Below are positions 7,706 to 26,271 of a stretch of 64,000 bases of DNA, one piece after another. Numbering within the stretch: position 1 is the first letter of the stretch; each line of letters opens with the position of its first letter. The DNA is from Medakamo hakoo. Lineage: Eukaryota > Chlorophyta > Trebouxiophyceae > Coccomyxaceae. The stretch spans positions 1 to 64,000 of the forward strand of contig CP089459.1 in the NCBI GenBank assembly GCA_026636295.1, read 5' to 3'. The translations under genes and the position numbers were made by a program. Under the pieces are notes generated by a model. It saw only the letters and a program-made list of their open reading frames with translations. It searched no databases and was not told where the DNA came from.

Positions 7706-8175
7706 AGTCGGGGTCGGCAGCGTTGGGAGACGGGGAGGGGGATGGGAGTGTAGGACGAGCGTGAATCACGCCCCGTGCCTTCTTGACAATGCTGGGATTT
7801 TACACTTTGGCGAAAAAGATAAAGGGGGGACGTCGTCTCAACGGGAGGAGGAATACAGCCGGCGAGGGTCGGGAGGGCGGGGCCCGGCACACAGACGCAG
7901 CGCGCAGCGCGTGGCGTGATCGGCCGCTGGGCCGCCACACCCTCCCGCGCCTCGCGCGGGCACGTGTAATGATGGTGTGAACGTGTTTTTACCTTTGCCG
8001 CGGGACGCGGGTTGGTGTTTAGGGTCGGTTACTTTTCGTTTAAGAGGCGGGCGGGCGGCACCACGGGTCCGGCCTACCACGCAGGCCAGTCGGCCGATGC
8101 GGGGTCGCCTGGGCCCGCCCGCCGGCTCCGCGGCGGGGAGGCAGAAAAAAAGGGGCGGGCCGCGGCGCCCGGGCC
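7706..8175. other. Convergent 3' region between transporter and collagen-like gene
   Basis: This space separates the stop codons of the rightward transporter gene and the leftward collagen-like gene. It should contain both 3' UTRs. A short less GC-rich segment (about 7780-7830, with AAAAAGATAAAG) is the only notable composition change. No coding segment is recognised. Confidence 0.5.
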
Positions 8176-10075
8176 TCAGGGGCACACCTCGCACAGCGCC
8201 ACCGCTTCCAGGCTGTCCATGGCGTCGCCGCTGACGAGGGGCTTGATGTTGACGGCGGAGCAGGCGCACGTGCCATCGCACGCCGGCTCCACGGCCGTCA
8301 GCGCCCACTTGGTCGACGGCGGGTCGGCGCCGCCCGTCGCGGGCGCGTCCTCGCCCTGGACGGCGGCCGCCGCCGCGCCGCCCTTGACTTTGCACTTGCA
8401 CCCCGTCAGCTTGGTGCCCGCCGGGCAGGTGGCCACCGGCGTGGTGCAGGAGCACGCGCCCACCTTGGGCGCGTACTTGTCGAACAGCAGGAACGACGAC
8501 TTGTCGAGCGTGCACACGTCCGAGCCCATGCACGTCGTCTGCGCCGACGCGGTCGTGCACGACGTGCCGCACGAGCCGGGCGGGCCGGGCGGGCCGGGGG
8601 GGCCTGTGCACACGTGTGTGTGGTGTGTGGTGTGAGAGGGCAGGGACAGGGGGCGGCTGGGCGGGCGGGAGGGCGGGCGGACACAGCGCCGCCCCCGCAG
8701 GTCGGTTTTCCAGCCGGTCGCGTGCACGCGCGCGTGGGCACAGCCCGTCCAGCCCACATACCCCCACACCCCCACAAACAAACAGTCACGCACCATCCGC
8801 ACCCACCGCCCCAGGCGGGCCGTCCGCGCCCGTGCTGCCGGGCGGGCCCGGCGGGCCTTCCGAGCCGATGGCTTTGGGTTGTTTTTTGGGGAAGAGTGCA
8901 TAGGGTGAGGCGGGGCGTGGGAAACAAGGGGGCGCCCCCGGCCACAGCCTGGCCAGCCGACCACCCCACCACACCCACCAACCTACCTCCGCTCTCGCCG
9001 GGCGGGCCGGGCGGGCCTGTGTGCGCGTGTGTTAGTGTTGTCGTCGTTGTTGTGTGAGCGGGCGTGGGTTGTGGGTGCTGGGAGGGAAGGGACTGGCGGC
9101 GAGCGGGCGAGGGCAACCGCCTCACCGCACGCCCCTCCCCCCTCTCCCCTCTCCCCTCTCCCCCTCCAAAAAACAAAGTCACCGTCAGCCCCGGGCGGGC
9201 CGGGCGGGCCGGGCGGGCCTGTGAGTGTGCGTGGGGTAGACGGGAGGACGGGTCGTGAGTGCGTGCAAGCAGGAGGGCGCCGGCCGACCGCCCGACCGCG
9301 TGCGCGTGCAACCGGCCCCCAGGGTTGGGGCCCGCGTCCGCCGCGGCCTCTCTCAGCCGCCCCCCACGGCCGCGCACTCCAAGCACACAGACGCACCCGT
9401 CTTCCACTGGTGAATGTCGTCAATGCCGGGGATGTCGATGTTGGAGGGCGCCATGGCGGCCGGCGCTTCTGCGGCCGGCGCGGACGCGGGCGCCTGTGGT
9501 TGTTGGGGAGTGATGGAAAGTGGGACGGGGGGTGGGAGGAAAAAATGGAGCGTGCATGCGTGGCGGACATGCCAAGAAAAAAACACGGCCGTCCCCCGCC
9601 GCCGGCGCACGGGCCACTAAAATCACCCGCCGCCACGCGTCCAGGGAAAACGTCGCTCGCACCACAGTGTGGCAGGCAAAATGCGCTCCACCGCCTCGTG
9701 CATTGGCCTCCCACCTCCCCCGAAAAAAAGCAAGCGACAGCCAACGCAGGCAAAAATTGAATGAACCGCGCGCGTCCACTTTTGCCACCCGTCGACGCAC
9801 GCACAGGCCATTCACATCGCACAGGCGCCTTCTCCCGGCATGTCGCCACCTCTGTGTGAGGGGATGGACGGCGAAACGCCCTCCAGCCGGTGCTATTACC
9901 TCCCCAAATCCGACCTCCCCGCTGCGACGCGCGCTTTGAGCAGGGGGCCCCCTGCCTCGTCGTCCTCGTCCTCCTCCCACACACAGCGACGCACCTCCTG
10001 GGCGCTGGCCGTCGCCATGCACACCGCGAGGGCCACGAGCGCCAGCGCGCGGACGAGGTGGGAGCGGGCGGGCAT
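8176..10075 (-). CDS. Secreted collagen-like (Gly-X-Y) protein with Cys-rich C-terminus
   Basis: 249 aa in six exons (minus strand): 10075-9995, 9493-9397, 9218-9183, 9016-8987, 8871-8794, 8603-8176. Exon 1 encodes a signal peptide (VRALALVALAVCMATASA). Exon 2 encodes an Ala/Pro-rich stretch ending DIHQWKT. Twenty-one uninterrupted Gly-X-Y triplets follow, mostly GPP, with GAD, GES, GAI, GSE, GST and GAV. The final exon starts with GPP GPP GPP GSC and then encodes a ~130-residue domain with about 18 cysteines (e.g. CSCTTPVATC, CDGTCACS, ALCEVCP at the end). Introns 2-5 are all phase 1 and split the codon just after or inside the Gly position, so the triplet register survives every splice. Likely an extracellular trimeric fibre or cell-wall protein. 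It is the first of three secreted-protein genes in a row on this strand. Confidence 0.85.
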
Positions 10076-10685
10076 GGGGAGGCGGTCTTGTGGAGCAGCG
10101 GGACGGGGACTGGTGGCAGCCAAACACTTTTTTTTTTCGAGTGCAGCGCGAGCAGCAGCTCAGCTCAGGGTTCGGCCCGCGCCCCCTCTCCCCTCCTCCC
10201 TTCACCCCACCCTCACGTCCATCTCCCCTCTCCCCACTCTCGCGCGTCCCACCACCCCGGCTTTCCGCCTGTGACAGGTGACGACGAACAACACACACAC
10301 ACGCACGCACAGAGAAAAACACGCACGGGCAGGGTGTTTCATTATTATTATTCACACGAAGTCGCGGGGCGGGGGCCCAGGGGTCGCGGCGCGGCGAGGC
10401 ACACACAACCTGCTAGGGCCCACCACCACCGCTCGCTTTTTCCTGCCCGCCCCTTTTTTTATTTATATCCAACGCCACACACACAACACCCGCCACACTA
10501 AACAGGACTTCCAACAGCGCGGGGGAGGGGGCAGGACTTCAATATTAGCTTGTTCTCAGCGGGGATTGATAAGGAATGGAATCAAGAGGGGGGGCGGGGG
10601 CGGCAGCACTCTCTCTCCCTCACAGCACAGCTTGTTCGGGTTTTCTTCGAGGCGCCGCCAGGTTGACAATTGACGGCCGCCGCGC
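10076..10685. other. Intergenic region in the secreted-protein cluster
   Basis: This lies upstream of the collagen-like gene (leftward promoter) and downstream of secreted paralogue A (its 3' UTR). It contains (AC)n at about 10288-10320, an AT-rich stretch (TTTCATTATTATTATTCACAC) near 10340, and a TTTTTTTATTTATAT segment near 10455. The T-rich stretches could be promoter or polyadenylation elements, which I cannot prove. No coding region is recognised. Confidence 0.5.
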
Positions 10686-12472
10686 TCACCCGTGGTGGTA
10701 GCCGTACGACGCGCCCGCGGCCGTGCACAAGACGGAGCCGTGGCAGATGGCGTTGCCGACCGCGCCGCCGACGACCTGGTGTTTTTTTTTTTTTTTTTTT
10801 TTTTTGGAGGAGGGGCTGTGAGACACGCGACCAACCCTCTCTCTCCCACCCCCGAGCGCTCCGCCTCCACTCCCCCACCAACCGCCTCCAAAAACAACTC
10901 ACCGCGTCAACGGGGTGGCCCCACGGGTCATAGTACACGTAGCGCAGGCGGCGGCCCGCGTTGGCCGCCCCGGGCGCGGGGTCCGAGGTCCGGGCGGCCT
11001 TGGAGTCGACCCACACCTGCATGGGAAAAAAAATGGGAAGGAGGAGTGAGGCACACACACCAAGCCGGAGACCCGACGCGGCGGCCGGCGCCTCCCACCC
11101 CCCCTGCCCCACCCACCCACGCCCCTGGTGCTGGGCTTACCTTGACGTTCGTCAGGCGGCTCTCCTTGCCCTGGTCCAGCGTCACGACCGCCGAGTCGGC
11201 GAGCGCGGCTTCCGCCTTGCCGCCCGCGAGCAGGGCGGCCTCCCCCTTGTTGACGGCCTTGGCCTTGACGCCCAGGACGGCCTTTTCCGTGTTGTACACC
11301 GGCAGCATCAGGCGGACGACGGCCTTGACGGGCTGGCCGTCCGCGTTGACGCCCTCGATGACGGCGTCGCCCTCCTGGTCGGGCTTGAAGCGCCCCTGCG
11401 GGAAGGCGGCGTCCATCTTGAGGTCGCCCGCGCTCGAGTGGATGGTGTTTTCGGGCATGATGCCGGAGAAGAAAATGTTTTGGGTGTCGGGCTGTTGGTG
11501 GGGTGCAGGGCGTGGGCGTCGCCAGGAAGGGGGGGTGGGGGGTGAGTGTGGCGCCGTCCCTCTCGGCGCAGGAAGGGGGCGGGCGGGGGAAAAAGGAGGG
11601 CGCCCCCACCCCCGCCCCGCAGGATCCCCACCACATGTCCGCACCTGGTAGACCGCCGTCATGGCGTCAAACCACAGGCCTTCCTCGGCCTTCGGGCGGT
11701 CCTCTGTCGTGTTTGGGTGGTGGTGGTGGTGGGGATGGGATGGGGTGAGAGGGTCTGGAATGGATGGAGACAGCATGGCCCGGCCGTCCGCGGCCCTGGC
11801 ACGGCGCCGCCCTCTTTCCGCCGCTTATATTGCTACCAATGGCTTCAACGTCCGCGCGTCAAGGCGGACGGGCGCGTTCGTGCCACTGCCGTTGCGCCGG
11901 GCCTCGCACACGGTCAAACAGAAAAAAGGGCTGCACGGGCGAGCGATGCCTTCCGTCTCATCGCCGTTGCCAAGTAAAAAGCGCCCGCGGCTGGCCACTG
12001 CCCCCCAATCGCCCCATTCCACGCCCCTCACAAGCGTAGATCTACGTCCGGATCAGTCATCGAACGGGATCGAAGTCCATTTGCCGGCCTTCCGGCCGCT
12101 CCAGGCGTGCGCGACGCCCCAGCGTCGCGCGGAGCATGGGCACCGCGGGGGCCTGCGTCGAGGCAGGCGACGGCGACGCCGCCTGCGTCGCCGTCCCGTC
12201 CTCAACCGCCCCCTCCCACCATCACGGGCCGATGAAAATGCACGTGGCAGCCATCGAGCATCGGGCAAGGCGTGCAGTAGCGCTTTCCAGCCGCCCCGCC
12301 CCGTCCCAAGCCCAACTGCGCGCGCGCGCACGCCGACCCACTGGACGCATGCGTGCGGGAAAAACAAACATCCAGCCCCGCCCTCCAACCAACCAAACTC
12401 ACCCAGGAGCACGCGGCCGGCCAGGGCCGGGGTCGCGATGGCCAGCATGGCCAGGATGAGGGCGGTGCGCAT
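10686..12472 (-). CDS. Secreted protein of unrecognised family, paralogue A
   Basis: 227 aa in five exons: 12472-12403, 11703-11645, 11491-11141, 11016-10903, 10775-10686. Exon 1 is a signal peptide (MRTALILAMLAIATPALAG). The mature protein contains KAEEGLWFDA, NIFFSGIMPENT, GDLKMDAAFPQGRF, LPVYN, VLGVKAK, LTNVKVWVDSKAAR, a YYDPWG motif and a Gly-rich end GGAVGNAICHGSVLC followed by YGYHHG. It is homologous over its whole length to the next gene upstream (13162-14964). I do not recognise the family. The two conserved cysteines in the tail and the signal peptide suggest an extracellular or endomembrane protein. Intron 4 has 24 consecutive A on the sense strand just before its acceptor. Confidence 0.82.
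10782..10805. repeat. 24-base T run (A run on sense strand) at a splice acceptor
   Basis: The run of T on the + strand lies within 10 bases of the acceptor of intron 4 of secreted paralogue A, so the pre-mRNA would read A24-CACCAG. A purine run in place of a polypyrimidine tract is unusual. It could be a remnant of a poly(A) tail from a retro-inserted sequence, or simple slippage. Confidence 0.7.
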
Positions 12473-13161: not shown

Positions 13162-14964
13162 TTAACGGCCGTGGTGGTAGCCGTAGTGGGCGCCGGCGGC
13201 CGTGCACAAGACGGAGCCGTGGCAGATGGCGTTGCCGACGGCGCCGCCTGTATGAAAAGAGAAGTGAAAAAGTGGGTTTTACGGTGAGCGCAGGTTAAGG
13301 AAACGGAAACGCACGCCCGCACTACCTCCCGCCTCTCGCGCCCAACGTACCAACAACGGCGCCGACGGGGCTGCCCTGTTGTGTGTGAGGGTAAGGGAAG
13401 GGCGGTGTGTGAGGGGGAAGGAGGGAGGCGAAGGGTGGCCACCCCAGCCCCCACCCGCTGCGCCCCACCCCGTTTTTCGTTCGTTCCGACGCTCTCCAAC
13501 GCCCGTTTCCGACGTCCCCGCCGCCGCCCACACCGCTCCACAAAACACGGCCCCCAACAACACGCAACGCACCCACGGGTCGTAGTGGTAGTGAGCGAGG
13601 CGGCGGCCGGCGTTGGTGGTGGACGCCGCCGCGCCCGCGTCGTCGGCGCGGGCCGCCTTGGAGTCGACCCACACCTTGACGTTGGTCAGCTTGGCGTCCT
13701 TCTCCTCGTCCAGCGTGCCCGTCGCCGGGTCGGCCTGGGCCTCCTCGACCTTGCCGCCCGCCAGCAGCGTCGGCTCCTCCTTGTCCAGGGTCTTGGCCTT
13801 GACGCCCAGCACCTTCTTGTCGGCGTTGTAGACGGGCAGGGCGACGCGCACGATCGCCTTGACCTGCTGGCCGGCCTTGTTGGTGCCCTCGACCAGCATG
13901 TCGCCGTACTGGTCGGGCGCGAAGCGGCCGGTCGGGAAAGCCTCGTCCATTTTCAGGTCGCCTGCGGTGAAAAAAAAAGGCAAAACAGAAAGGGTGGGGC
14001 GGGTGAGGCGTGGAAGAGGGGCGAGGCGCGAGGGGCGGGTGAGAGACGGAGGCGACCCCCCTCAACGCTCGCGCGCGCGCGCCAAGGCCGTGTCAGCCTG
14101 CAATGGTCGACGCGAAAAAAAAGAAACATGGGAACAACGCACCCTGGGACGTGTGCAGCGTGTTTTCGGGCGAGATGCCGGAGAAGAAGATGTTCTGGTT
14201 GTCCGGCTGGTAGACGGCTTCCGCCGCGTCAAACCACAGGCCTTCCTCGGCCTTGGCGCGCTCGGCTGTGGGTGGTGGTGGTGGGGGTGGCGAGGGTGGT
14301 TGGTGGTGGTGAGGATGGGCACGGGGGTGGACAGGTCCGGCCGTGCCGTGCCTGGGATGATGGCGGAGGGTCAGGTGTTGGCCCTGATTCGGCCGGCCGG
14401 CTGCCCTGGTCGATGATGGGGGCCTCGTTTCCTCGCGGCGCACTGCATCTCAGCGCCCGCGGCGGGGCCAGGACCGCGTGATCGCCCGATTCCCGCCCTC
14501 TGCGACCACAGAGCAGAGCTCAGATCACCATGGCGATCGAGGAAAAGGCGCGTTGCCGGCCCGCAACACCGACTTTCACGCGACCTACGCGCTCGCGTGG
14601 TCGGCGACCCGCAGGGTGTGCATGCGTCCGCGCCACACCCACAGCCCGCCGCCGCCGCTGCTGGCCGGCGGACGGGAGCTGATTGGTCCCTCCCTCTTCC
14701 CAGGCCCACACGTGCGGATGTGAACAAGTCATCGCGATTGAACACAGGCATTGCGCCCACACCGCCGCCACACGCCGCCGCCAAAAAGGCCCCTGCGCGC
14801 GCGCGCGCGTGCCGACCGCCTCCGCGCCAAGAACCAATGAATCGCTCTCGCCGCCGCCCGCGCCCTCCCACGATCCAAACAAAAAACTCACCGAGCAGGG
14901 TGCGGCCGGCCAGGGCCGGGGCGGCGATGGCCAGGACGGCCAGGGCGATGACGGCGGTGCGCAT
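13162..14964 (-). CDS. Secreted protein of unrecognised family, paralogue B
   Basis: 231 aa in five exons: 14964-14892, 14265-14143, 13961-13573, 13375-13351, 13247-13162. Signal peptide MRTAVIALAVLAIAAPALAG. Shared with paralogue A are KAEEGLWFDA, QNIFFSGI, GDLKMDEAFP, LPVYN, VLGVKAK, LTNVKVWVDSKAAR, DPWG and GGAVGNAICHGSVLC plus YGYHHG. Only intron 1, just after the signal peptide and in phase 1, is in the same place in both genes. The other three introns of each gene are private. The two genes are head-to-tail on one strand and look like a tandem duplication. Exon 4 is only 25 bases. No function is proposed beyond secretion. Confidence 0.82.
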
Positions 14965-15058
14965 GGTTGTGATGATGGGGGTGAAAAACAACGGTGCGAG
15001 CTTTTCCGGATGGATGTCTAGTGGGAAACCCTTTACACACGCCACTCCCGACACACAC

Positions 15059-15109
15059 TCACCACCCACCGCCTCCCCCACCCCGCTGCTGCTGGTGCTG
15101 CTGCCCACG

Positions 15110-15145
<36 letters not shown>

Positions 15146-16867
15146 CCACCGGCGCTGCTGCTGCTGCTGCTGGTGATGGTGGTGGTGGTGGTGCGGAGGC
15201 CCGCCCTGCCACCCCCCGCCCGGCGGGCCGCCCCACTGCTGCTGCGGCGGCGGCGGCCCGGGCATGCCGCCAGCCGGCGGCGCGGGCATAACCGGATATG
15301 CGACCGGCGCCGCGCCCGGCCCCCCGCCCACCGCTTGCACCAGCACCAGCGACCCGCCCGGCCCCGCCGGAATCCAGTACTGCTGGTTGGGCGCGGGCGG
15401 CGGTGGCGCGCCGCCGGCAGCGGCGCCGGGCGCGGTCGGTGGGTAGGGCGGCGCGCTGTAGACGTGCTGGGGCGGGGGGAGCGCCGCGGCGGCCGCGGCC
15501 GTGGCCGCGGCGCCGCCGCCGCTTCCACCGGCGCCGTGCGCGGGCCCGCCCGGGCGCTCGCGCGGCGGGTGGCGCCGGATGGAGGCCGCGACCAGGCGCA
15601 GGCCGGCCAGCACGGCGCCGGCGCTCGGCCCGCCCACGACGACGACGCGGTCGTTGTCGAGCGCGCACCGGGGCAGGCCTTCCTCCAGGGGCGCCACGTG
15701 GACGCGCGCCCCCGTGCTGGACCGGACTTCCTTGGCGTGGCACCCGCCGCGGCCGATGAGGACGCCGGCTTGGGAGCGGTTGACCAGCAAGCGGACGGTG
15801 TGCGTGGTCGTGGACGTGGCCGGCGCGTCCGGCGCACCGCCGCCACCGCCGCCGCCACCGTCGGTCGAGGCGGGCGCGGATGACGCGCCAGCACCGTCCG
15901 CGCTCCCACCACCAGCGCTCCCGTGTTCTTCAGCCAGCGCCAAGTCCGCCACGCGGGCCAGCGCCACTTGCGCCGCGTCCTCGTCCGCGTCGGCCACTCC
16001 TTCCGAGCGACAGGAAATCACGACCACCCGGTCCTCGCAGCCCGGCGTCGGGTCGATGACCCGCAGCCGCGCGCCCGTCTCCGTCCGAATGGCGGAAATG
16101 GTGCTGCCGCCCTTGCCGATGACGCCACCGATGAGCCGGTTGGGGATGAGGACGCGGAAAACGGTGTCCGAGGCGGTGGGCGCGCCGCCGCCGGGCCCTG
16201 AGGGCCCGGCCAGGCCACCGCTGGACGACGGCAGCCGGCCCGCGGGCACCGCCCCCGTTCCGGACGCGCGGCGTTTGGTGTCGGGCGCGCCTTCCGTGTC
16301 CGGGGGCAGCGCGGTCGCCGCGTCGTCCGCGGGCTGGCGGCGTTTGTGCGACAGGCGAGCTGGGGGGTGCGTGGGTGGGGGATGCGGGGGTTGGGGAGGG
16401 GATAAGAGTTGGGGGTGTGACGGCCCGGCGTTTCCCCACCCACCCACCCACCCACCCCGCGGCGCTGCAGCCTCTCCGGACGTCCGCCCGCCCCTGTGGA
16501 CGGGCGGGTGGGAGCGGGCCGGCGGCGGGCAGGGGTTGACACTGGAGGCGAGTGCCCCCCCCGGCGCGGTGGTGTGTGCTGGGACCAGGTCGAAAAACGA
16601 GCCCTTTCGACTGTGGCCGCCCGCCCGTCCCCGTCCCACCCCGTGGGCGACCGCCCAATCCTCCCCGCCAAGGGGTAGCTGCGCCAGCATGTCCACTCAC
16701 TCACCATCGCACCGCACCCCCCACAACAACCGCGCCCCCCACTCCCACTCACCAGACGCGGCGACGCCGCCGGCGGCGTCAATGCCTGACGCCGCCAGCG
16801 TCGTCGTGTTGCCGGTCGACGGCGGGGGCGCGCCGCCGCCGCCGTCGGCGCCGGGCGAGGTCGACAT
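15059..16867 (-). CDS. Two-KH-domain RNA-binding protein with His/Gln/Gly-rich tail
   Basis: 471 aa in two exons: 16867-16753 and 16359-15059. KH domain 1 (about residues 100-155) has VFRVLIPNRLIGGVIGKGGS, containing the GxxG loop as GKGG. KH domain 2 (about 225-295) has LLVNRSQAGVLIGRGG, with GRGG. The two KH domains resemble poly(C)-binding proteins and the plant HEN4/PEPPER group, which bind single-stranded C-rich RNA. The C-terminus is Pro/Gly/Gln-rich with seven His, six Gln and a Gly run just before the stop. A KR-rich segment (SHKRRQ) at the start of exon 2 may be a nuclear signal. Its gene starts ~325 bp from that of starch synthase, on the opposite strand. Confidence 0.9.
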
Positions 16868-24450: not shown

Positions 24451-26271
24451 ATGGATCGCGTGGCCGTCCTGGCTGGCCACCTGGCGGGTGCGTGGAGGGG
24501 CGCAGGCGTGGAGGGAGCGCCCGGTGGGGCACTCCCCCCTGCGGCCGCGAGTGACTTCCTCGTCAGCCCCCGGCGTGTCGCAGGCTGCATTCGTCGCCGC
24601 ACGCGTCGCCGGCCTGGCCCGGGCGGCCGTCCCAACGAGCCTCCGCCCCCGCAGCCGGGTGCGGACGTCTTCACACCGCACGCCCGGCGCGGGTGGGCGT
24701 GTCGGGCGGGGCCGATGCGGTTCCACGGCCGCTGCTGCCGCTCGCGGCCGACGGACCATCGCTCACACCTTTCTCCCTCACGCCACCCACCCGCCCACCA
24801 GGCCCGTCGTCCCGCCGGGACGACGGCGCGGCCGTCGCGCCCGCCCCCACCGCGGCTCTCACGTCGCCGACCGCCGGCTCCTACCCGGGCTTCACCCAAG
24901 CCACGACCATGGCGTCCTTCCCGCCCGCCGCCCACGACGTCTTCTGCCTGGACGACCTCCTGTCGCCCGAGGAGCGCGACATCCGGGCCCGCGTCCGCGC
25001 TTTCATGGAAGCCGAGGTCGCGCCGGTCGTCGCCGACTACTGGGAGCGGGCGGAGTTTCCCTTCCAGCTGGTGCCCAAGCTGGCGGCCCTGCGCCTGGGC
25101 GGCGGCACGATCAAAGGGTACGGCTGCCCCGGCCAGACCGTCGTCGGCGCGGCCATGGCCGTCATCGAAATGGCGCGCGTGGACGCGTCCATGTCCACGT
25201 TTTTGATGGTGCACAACAGCCTGGCCATGCTGACGATCGGTGAGTTGTGGGGGTGGCAGGGGTGGGAGGCGGCGCCCCCCCGCGCGGGCGCGCCCCCTCA
25301 CGTGACAACCCAACTCTCTCATGTGTCCACCCCACCCACCCCACCACCACCACCACCACCCCACCCCCACCCCCTCAGCCCTCCTCGGCTCCGAAGCCCA
25401 GAAGCAAGAATTGCTGCCCGCCATGGCCGCCCTCAAATCCGTGGGCGCGTGGGCCCTCACCGAACCCAGCAACGGCTCCGACGCGGCCGCCCTGCAGACG
25501 ACCGCGACGCCCGCCCCGTGCGGCGGGTGGACCCTCAACGGCCGCAAGCGCTGGATCGGGAATGGGACGTGGGGCGATGTCATCGTCGTCTGGGCCCGCA
25601 ACACGACCGACAACCAGGTCAACGCGTTCATCGTGCGCAAGGGCACGCCCGGCTTCACCGCGTCCAAGATTGAAAACAAGACGGCCCTGCGCTGCGTCCA
25701 AAACGCGGACATCCACCTGCAGGGCTGCACCGTCCCCGCGTCCGCCCGCCTGCCCGGTGTCAACTCGTTCGCCGACACCAACAAGGTCCTGGCCATCTCC
25801 CGCATCATGGTCGCCTGGCAGCCGGTCGGCATCGCGGCGGGCGTGTACGACATGGCGCTGCGCTACACCAAGGAGCGCGTCCAGTTTGGCGCGCCGCTCG
25901 CGGCCTTCCAGGCCACCCAGGAAAAGCTGGCCCGCATGCTGGGCTCGGTCCAGGCCATGGCGCTCATGGCGTGGCGCCTGTCCAAACTGCACGAGGACGG
26001 CAAGATGACGCACGAGCACGCGTCCCTGGCCAAGGCCTGGAACAGCGTGCGCGGGCGGGAGGTGTGCGCGCTCGGCCGCGAGCTGCTCGGCGGCAACGGC
26101 GTCGTCGCCGACTTCCTCGTCGCCAAGGCGTTTGGCGACATGGAAGCCATTTACACGTACGAGGGCACGTACGAAGTGAATGCGCTGGTGGCCGGGCGTG
26201 GGGCGACGGGCCTGGCGGCGTTCCGGCCGCCGCCGTCGACCGGTGGGAAGAAGCAGGGCGGGCGGCACTGA
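24451..26271 (+). CDS. ACX4: Acyl-CoA oxidase ACX4-like, peroxisomal, with N-terminal PTS2
   Basis: First step of short-chain beta-oxidation in peroxisomes (acyl-CoA to trans-2-enoyl-CoA, electrons to O2). 455 aa in three exons: 24451-24487, 24802-25239, 25379-26271. It resembles plant ACX4 along its length: [91 protein letters not shown]. The catalytic base should be the Glu in [11 protein letters not shown] (about residue 420). The 12-codon exon 1 reads [12 protein letters not shown], which fits the PTS2 nonapeptide (RVAVLAGHL). Exon 2 joins in frame and continues into a segment like the N-terminus of plant ACX4. The C-terminus (GGRH) is not a standard PTS1. Glutaryl-CoA dehydrogenase is the nearest alternative but fits less well. 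Confidence 0.93.

Follow-up and report, generated by a model that had tools for sequence, protein, structure and literature searches.

Introduction

The closest described systems include animal collagen genes, in which two arrangements of the collagen repeat on exons are known. In fibrillar collagen genes the exons measure 54 bp or a related length, and they open with an unsplit glycine codon (PMC2852846). Vertebrate collagen IV genes are characterised, as a defining trait, by glycine codons split within the collagenous domain, which ctenophore collagen IV genes have as well (PMC5395295). Secreted collagen-like proteins are reported from Blastocystis, where they are classed as bacterial in type and have 63 repeats (PMC5608401). 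Ten potential relatives of collagens IV and XIII are reported for Volvox, some of them with a G-X-Y rhythm (PMC10923841), a record at odds with the initial annotation of the locus treated here, which had held that collagen-like proteins are rarely described in green algae. None of the papers listed in our literature searches on green-algal collagen-like proteins, with incomplete coverage of journals, deals with this gene, and none of those listed in similar searches treats intron phase in algal collagen genes.

Medakamo hakoo is a green alga with thick cell walls; its genome comprises 15,811,321 bases over 18 contigs, two of them organellar and 16 nuclear with TTAGGG telomeres, at 73% GC (PMC9871001). 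The words collagen and intron are absent from the main text of that paper. The genome analysed here holds 15,638,232 bases in 16 contigs. The window, meaning the whole 64,000-base stretch of DNA that was analysed (G000:C6:1-64000), has a GC content of 66-84% in 2-kb steps. Our preferred reading, to which we give a probability of about 0.72 with the mechanism proposed below included, is that 8176-10075 of the window holds an ordinary spliced nuclear green-algal gene for a short secreted collagen-like protein.

Gene model and protein product

The gene lies on the minus strand, with its ATG at 10075 and its stop at 8176. It has six exons of 81, 97, 36, 30, 78 and 428 nt, and its five introns (501, 178, 166, 115 and 190 nt) are all GT-AG, in phases 0, 1, 1, 1 and 1. 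The parts of the model are as follows.

Exon 1, 9995..10075, minus strand: 81 nt; holds the start codon and encodes an apparent signal peptide, MPARSHLVRALALVALAVCMATASAQ (judged by eye)
Intron 1, 9494..9994, minus strand: 501 nt, phase 0, before and outside the repeat; donor ranked 2 of 115 GT, acceptor 1 of 74 AG
Exon 2, 9397..9493, minus strand: 97 nt; Ala/Pro-rich stretch, then NIDIPGIDDIHQWKT, then base 1 of the repeat's first Gly
Intron 2, 9219..9396, minus strand: 178 nt, phase 1; splits the repeat's first Gly codon
Exon 3, 9183..9218, minus strand: 36 nt, 4 triplets: GPP GPP GPP GAD
Intron 3, 9017..9182, minus strand: 166 nt, phase 1; splits a Gly codon
Exon 4, 8987..9016, minus strand: 30 nt, 3 triplets and one residue: GPP GPP GES G, then base 1 of Ala
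Intron 4, 8872..8986, minus strand: 115 nt, phase 1; interrupts Ala rather than Gly, at an X position
Exon 5, 8794..8871, minus strand: 78 nt; remainder of GAI, then GSE GPP GPP GST GAD GPP GAV GAD
Intron 5, 8604..8793, minus strand: 190 nt, phase 1; splits a Gly codon; donor ranked 1 of 115 GT, acceptor 11 of 74 AG
Exon 6, 8176..8603, minus strand: 428 nt including the stop; final triplets GPP GPP GPP GSC GTS and cysteine-rich C-terminal region

The predicted product has 249 residues and consists of an apparent signal peptide (by eye), an Ala/Pro-rich stretch, the repeat and a cysteine-rich end. The repeat runs over residues 60-122 as 21 unbroken Gly-X-Y triplets, 11 of which are Gly-Pro-Pro, and contains neither Lys nor Arg. 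Residues 60-117 match Pfam Collagen (PF01391) with an E value of 5e-10 and 39.4 bits against a cut-off of 27.2, and in a scan of the product with E up to 10 Collagen was the only family found; neither COLF1 nor NC1 was matched. Of the 14 cysteines from residue 119 onward, one belongs to the repeat's closing triplets and the other 13 follow the repeat. The initial annotation had placed an algal collagen-like gene here, and the 21 triplets in register together with a Pfam Collagen match above cut-off bear this out. Its coordinates ran exactly from start to stop, and the gene model agrees with its 21 triplets and its internal exons of 36, 30 and 78 nt.

Comparison with known collagen genes

Like the animal fibrillar collagen genes, the algal gene divides its collagen repeat among short exons; unlike them, these exons are 36, 30 and 78 nt long, the introns are in phase 1 and the product lacks a match to the COLF1 C-propeptide. 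The contrast with fibrillar genes drawn in the initial annotation is correct, in that fibrillar exons open on an intact Gly codon (PMC2852846). The animal collagen IV genes share with the algal gene their split Gly codons, here at three of the four repeat introns, and their mixed exon lengths (PMC5395295). They differ in that the algal product has no NC1-type Pfam match, its repeat is much shorter and one of the four introns lies outside Gly. The split-Gly pattern is not new, since it has already been described for animal collagen IV genes (PMC5395295).

Secreted collagen-like proteins (PF01391) of protists and algae resemble the M. hakoo product in having Gly at each third residue, Pro-rich X and Y positions and an apparent signal peptide. 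In contrast to these, the M. hakoo repeat is short (21 triplets) and free of Lys and Arg, and is followed by an orphan cysteine-rich C-terminal region.

Support for the exon-intron structure

Ranked among the 115 GT sites of the gene, the donors of the five introns stand at 1, 2, 4, 5 and 6; the acceptors stand at 1, 2, 5, 7 and 11 among 74 AG sites, the acceptor of intron 5 being weak. The structure was also compared with the output of a self-written, self-trained gene finder, a two-strand hidden Markov model that is blind to collagen. It was trained on 27 sequences totalling 137,669 bases: 25 loci plus the window's two flanks, from which 8101-10100, and with it the collagen-like gene, had been cut out. 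When the window was decoded after training on the full set, all five introns were recovered to the base, and training on the window flanks only gave the same five. Training on the 25 loci only (75,669 bases) led to skipping of the 30-nt exon 4, with the start of exon 6 still recovered. Exon 4 is supported by the repeat itself, because its skipping would break the triplet register.

None of the three trained models recovered the stop at 8176; each added a tail intron instead, accompanied by a 3-base exon in the case of the full set. We take this tail intron and the 3-base exon past the stop to be spurious, an error of the gene finder. The program fuses or splits some genes, for example at 13162-16867, where an RNA-binding-like part is joined to a secreted protein. 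Its predicted junctions were compared with a known protein in one case, at residue 200 of an acyl-CoA oxidase relative. The micro-exons of the gene are near the lower limit of exon size without being unique: 5 of the 65 predicted internal exons have at most 40 nt, and some of these may be errors. Taken as a prediction from sequence, 8176-10075 is very probably a true spliced gene.

Genomic surroundings

A TAACCC telomere array occupies 1-112, placing the gene 8 kb from the end of a chromosome. The subtelomeric gene predicted at 355-2052 on the minus strand contains three copies of a repeat of ~100 residues, and a NAHAHRDE stretch occurs in every copy (identified by eye). Two tandem paralogues adjoin the collagen-like gene on the minus strand, one at 10686-12472 and the other in pieces at 13168-14263, the first exon of the latter perhaps lying in 14892-15000. 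Both appear to be secreted, have ~230 residues, are 63-77% identical per piece and share the ending NAICHGSVLCTAAGA-YGYHHG. No Pfam family was found above cut-off in these paralogues. There is a distant third copy at C2:456081-456602 (38%).

Intron phase and split glycine codons

All four introns at the edge of the repeat or within it have GT-AG ends, and all four are in phase 1, the phase that the initial annotation had given. It had placed all four at Gly, which is true of three: introns 2, 3 and 5 split a Gly codon as G|GC, and intron 4 (8872-8986) splits the X-position Ala codon (G|CC) of Gly-Ala-Ile. The fifth intron of the gene (9494-9994) is in phase 0 and lies ahead of the repeat.

Among the 118 introns that the gene finder predicted in its 27 training sequences, phases 0, 1 and 2 occur 58, 37 and 23 times. 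Four of four in phase 1 has a probability of 0.0097 against this background and of 0.026 with exon-side splice-context weights, and at least four of five in phase 1 has a probability of 0.036, all of these figures treating introns as independent, resting on predicted rather than annotated introns and having been computed after the pattern was noticed. With the same provisos, at least three of four introns at phase 1 of Gly has a probability of 0.005 under uniform placement, where the clustering at Gly would be notable, and of 0.073 under splice-context weights. Gly phase-1 sites receive 28.5% of placement under these weights and one ninth if placement is uniform. Of the 17 predicted genes with at least three introns, one (24451-26271) likewise has three consecutive introns in phase 1. 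That gene, on the plus strand, encodes a relative of peroxisomal acyl-CoA oxidase 4; all three of its phase-1 introns are predicted, and only the third junction lies within the aligned part. It provides a helpful control for runs of phase-1 introns.

In the genome's predicted introns, G is preferred before the donor and is frequent after the acceptor. The split Gly codons need no special cause, because splice sites favour exon-side G and the GG of GGC-CCG-CCC lies mainly inside the Gly codon. Intron placement in the repeat is mostly as ordinary splice-site preferences would give, and too much weight was put on phase in the initial annotation.

Exon modules and exon skipping

The three internal exons are all 1-1 symmetric, and any skip keeps the reading frame. 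The only one whose length is a multiple of 9 is the 36-nt exon; 30 and 78 are not, and their sum of 108 is. Skipping exon 4 or exon 5 alone would shift the Gly-X-Y register despite an intact reading frame. By exon-length arithmetic, the skips that keep the register are those of exon 3 (leaving 17 triplets), of exons 4 and 5 together (9) and of all three (5). It had been claimed that splicing never breaks the triplet frame; this is true of every GXY gene that is spliced correctly, and when read as a claim that the exons are modules it fails for two of the three internal exons.

The alternative that survives best, though we consider it unlikely, is a convergent modular collagen whose repeat grew by duplication of small phase-1 exons, in parallel to the fibrillar 54-bp history. 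The symmetry of the three internal exons would fit such a history, as would the lengths of exon 3 (36 nt) and of exons 4 and 5 together (108 nt) as multiples of 9 and the near-identical DNA at the starts of exons 3, 4 and 6. Against it, neither 30 nor 78 nt is divisible by 9 and intron 4 falls outside Gly; the shared exon starts are expected anyway from Gly-Pro-Pro written in GC-rich codons. Duplication was also sought in the introns: pairs 3-5 and 4-5 scored above all 200 block shuffles, yet they are unremarkable against real predicted introns. The window's 31 other predicted introns form 465 pairs, some of them from one gene, and of these pairs 6.2% reach a score of 37 and 4.3% a score of 39, the two scores in question. 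Exon duplication was rejected on this ground. The convergent exon-repeat origin suggested earlier finds no support: there is no shared exon unit length and the introns are unremarkably alike. The exon lengths would fit a late insertion of intron 4 into an exon of 108 nt, which we offer as a guess.

Slightly less likely again is that alternative splicing tunes the length of the rod, with the register-preserving skips giving 17, 9 or 5 triplets. Exon-length arithmetic would allow such skips, and micro-exon 4 is weak enough that one of the three trained models missed it. However, exon 4 or exon 5 skipped singly breaks the register, and runs of phase-1 introns occur in another gene as well (the one in 17 with three in a row). 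More improbable still is a combined scenario, that of an independent non-animal collagen with phase-1 exons and split Gly codons like those of collagen IV, in which exon skipping (17, 9 or 5 triplets, in register) determines how long a trimer of an undescribed kind, bound to the wall and locked by disulfides, becomes.

The repeat against chance

Shuffling the mature protein 20,000 times produced GXY runs of 7 at most, compared with the 21 observed, and in the other 26 predicted proteins of the window no run exceeded 5. Elsewhere in the six frames of the window there are GXY runs 5, 6 or 7 triplets long, of which the two longer classes are Gly-rich with at least 25% extra glycine. That the locus is not a collagen at all, being a chance GXY reading of GC-rich simple sequence or a pseudogene, could appeal to these isolated runs of 5-7 triplets, but it is very improbable given 21 in-register triplets beyond the reach of shuffles, the glycine-rich character of the runs of 6 or 7, an open frame, well-ranked splice sites and a cysteine-rich ending.

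Relatives and other collagen genes

The C-terminal region (132 residues) has no second copy in its own genome at E up to 0.4. The sole non-self match at E up to 1, on C11 (E 0.45), was rejected as low complexity. Among viral contigs there were 20 pattern stretches and no relative of the region at E 1e-3; bacterial and archaeal genomes gave 290 pattern stretches and no relative, and in the PDB no relative was found at E up to 10.

The Pfam Collagen search of the genome gave 21 matches, all on C3. It overlooked the collagen-like gene itself, because it proceeded exon by exon, and other split collagen genes could escape likewise. As a DNA pattern, Gly-Pro-Pro occurs at 40 places in the genome, six of them inside the collagen-like gene; the reversed control is identical to the pattern itself and hence uninformative. 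Scanning 24 of the 34 other places revealed four with Pro-containing GXY runs of at least four triplets. Three of these (L027, L035 and L037) have runs of four triplets. The fourth, L017 (G000:C3:69813-69832, minus strand), has nine GXY triplets around GPPGPPG in a 133-codon open frame, which may be a shadow frame.

There is a second collagen gene at G000:C3:44500-50500 (L041), with 233 GXYG steps in a 1088-codon open frame and an apparent signal peptide. It extends over C3:46.6-49.5 kb, its first predicted exon has 708 codons and its flanks are 47-57% GC. Farther along the repeats the reading frame changes, and either the assembly or the gene may be interrupted at that point. Pfam Collagen is matched by the first 255 residues of the product. 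The same residues match collagen-like stretches in viral contigs (52 loci) and phages (26 records), and these viral and phage matches may reflect composition only. Both collagen genes of M. hakoo have an apparent signal peptide (judged by eye) and a Pfam Collagen match, whereas long Thr/Gln/Asp-rich repeats, a predicted first exon of 708 codons and low-GC flanks set the second apart from the first.

Proposed function of the product

Under our preferred reading, that of an ordinary gene for a short collagen-like protein, the product would enter the secretory pathway and three chains would associate, most likely via the cysteine-rich C-terminal region. The rise per residue in the collagen triple helix is ~0.29 nm, and the 21-triplet region (63 residues) would wind into a rod of ~18 nm. 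Cysteines where the repeat ends (GSC GTS C) and farther on may lock the trimer through disulfides, and the trimer could be located in or on the thick cell wall. The most likely product is predicted to be short, secreted and homotrimeric, locked by disulfides and situated in the wall or at the surface. There are ten matches in the genome to Pfam PF13640, a 2OG-Fe(II) oxygenase family that we take to include prolyl 4-hydroxylases; given these candidate enzymes, the Y-position prolines of the repeat could be hydroxylated.

Discussion

The gene is a modest addition to the known collagen genes, not a new kind. The preference of splice sites for G, combined with the GG at the start of Gly codons, offers a simple explanation, open to testing, for a possible recurrence of split Gly codons among collagen genes that are not related. 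The gene documented here, rich in Gly-Pro-Pro and split by introns, is a collagen-like gene of a minimal green alga whose genome also has a long collagen gene of a different style. If related algae share the same introns, the gene would provide a clean outgroup for arguments about collagen exon structure.
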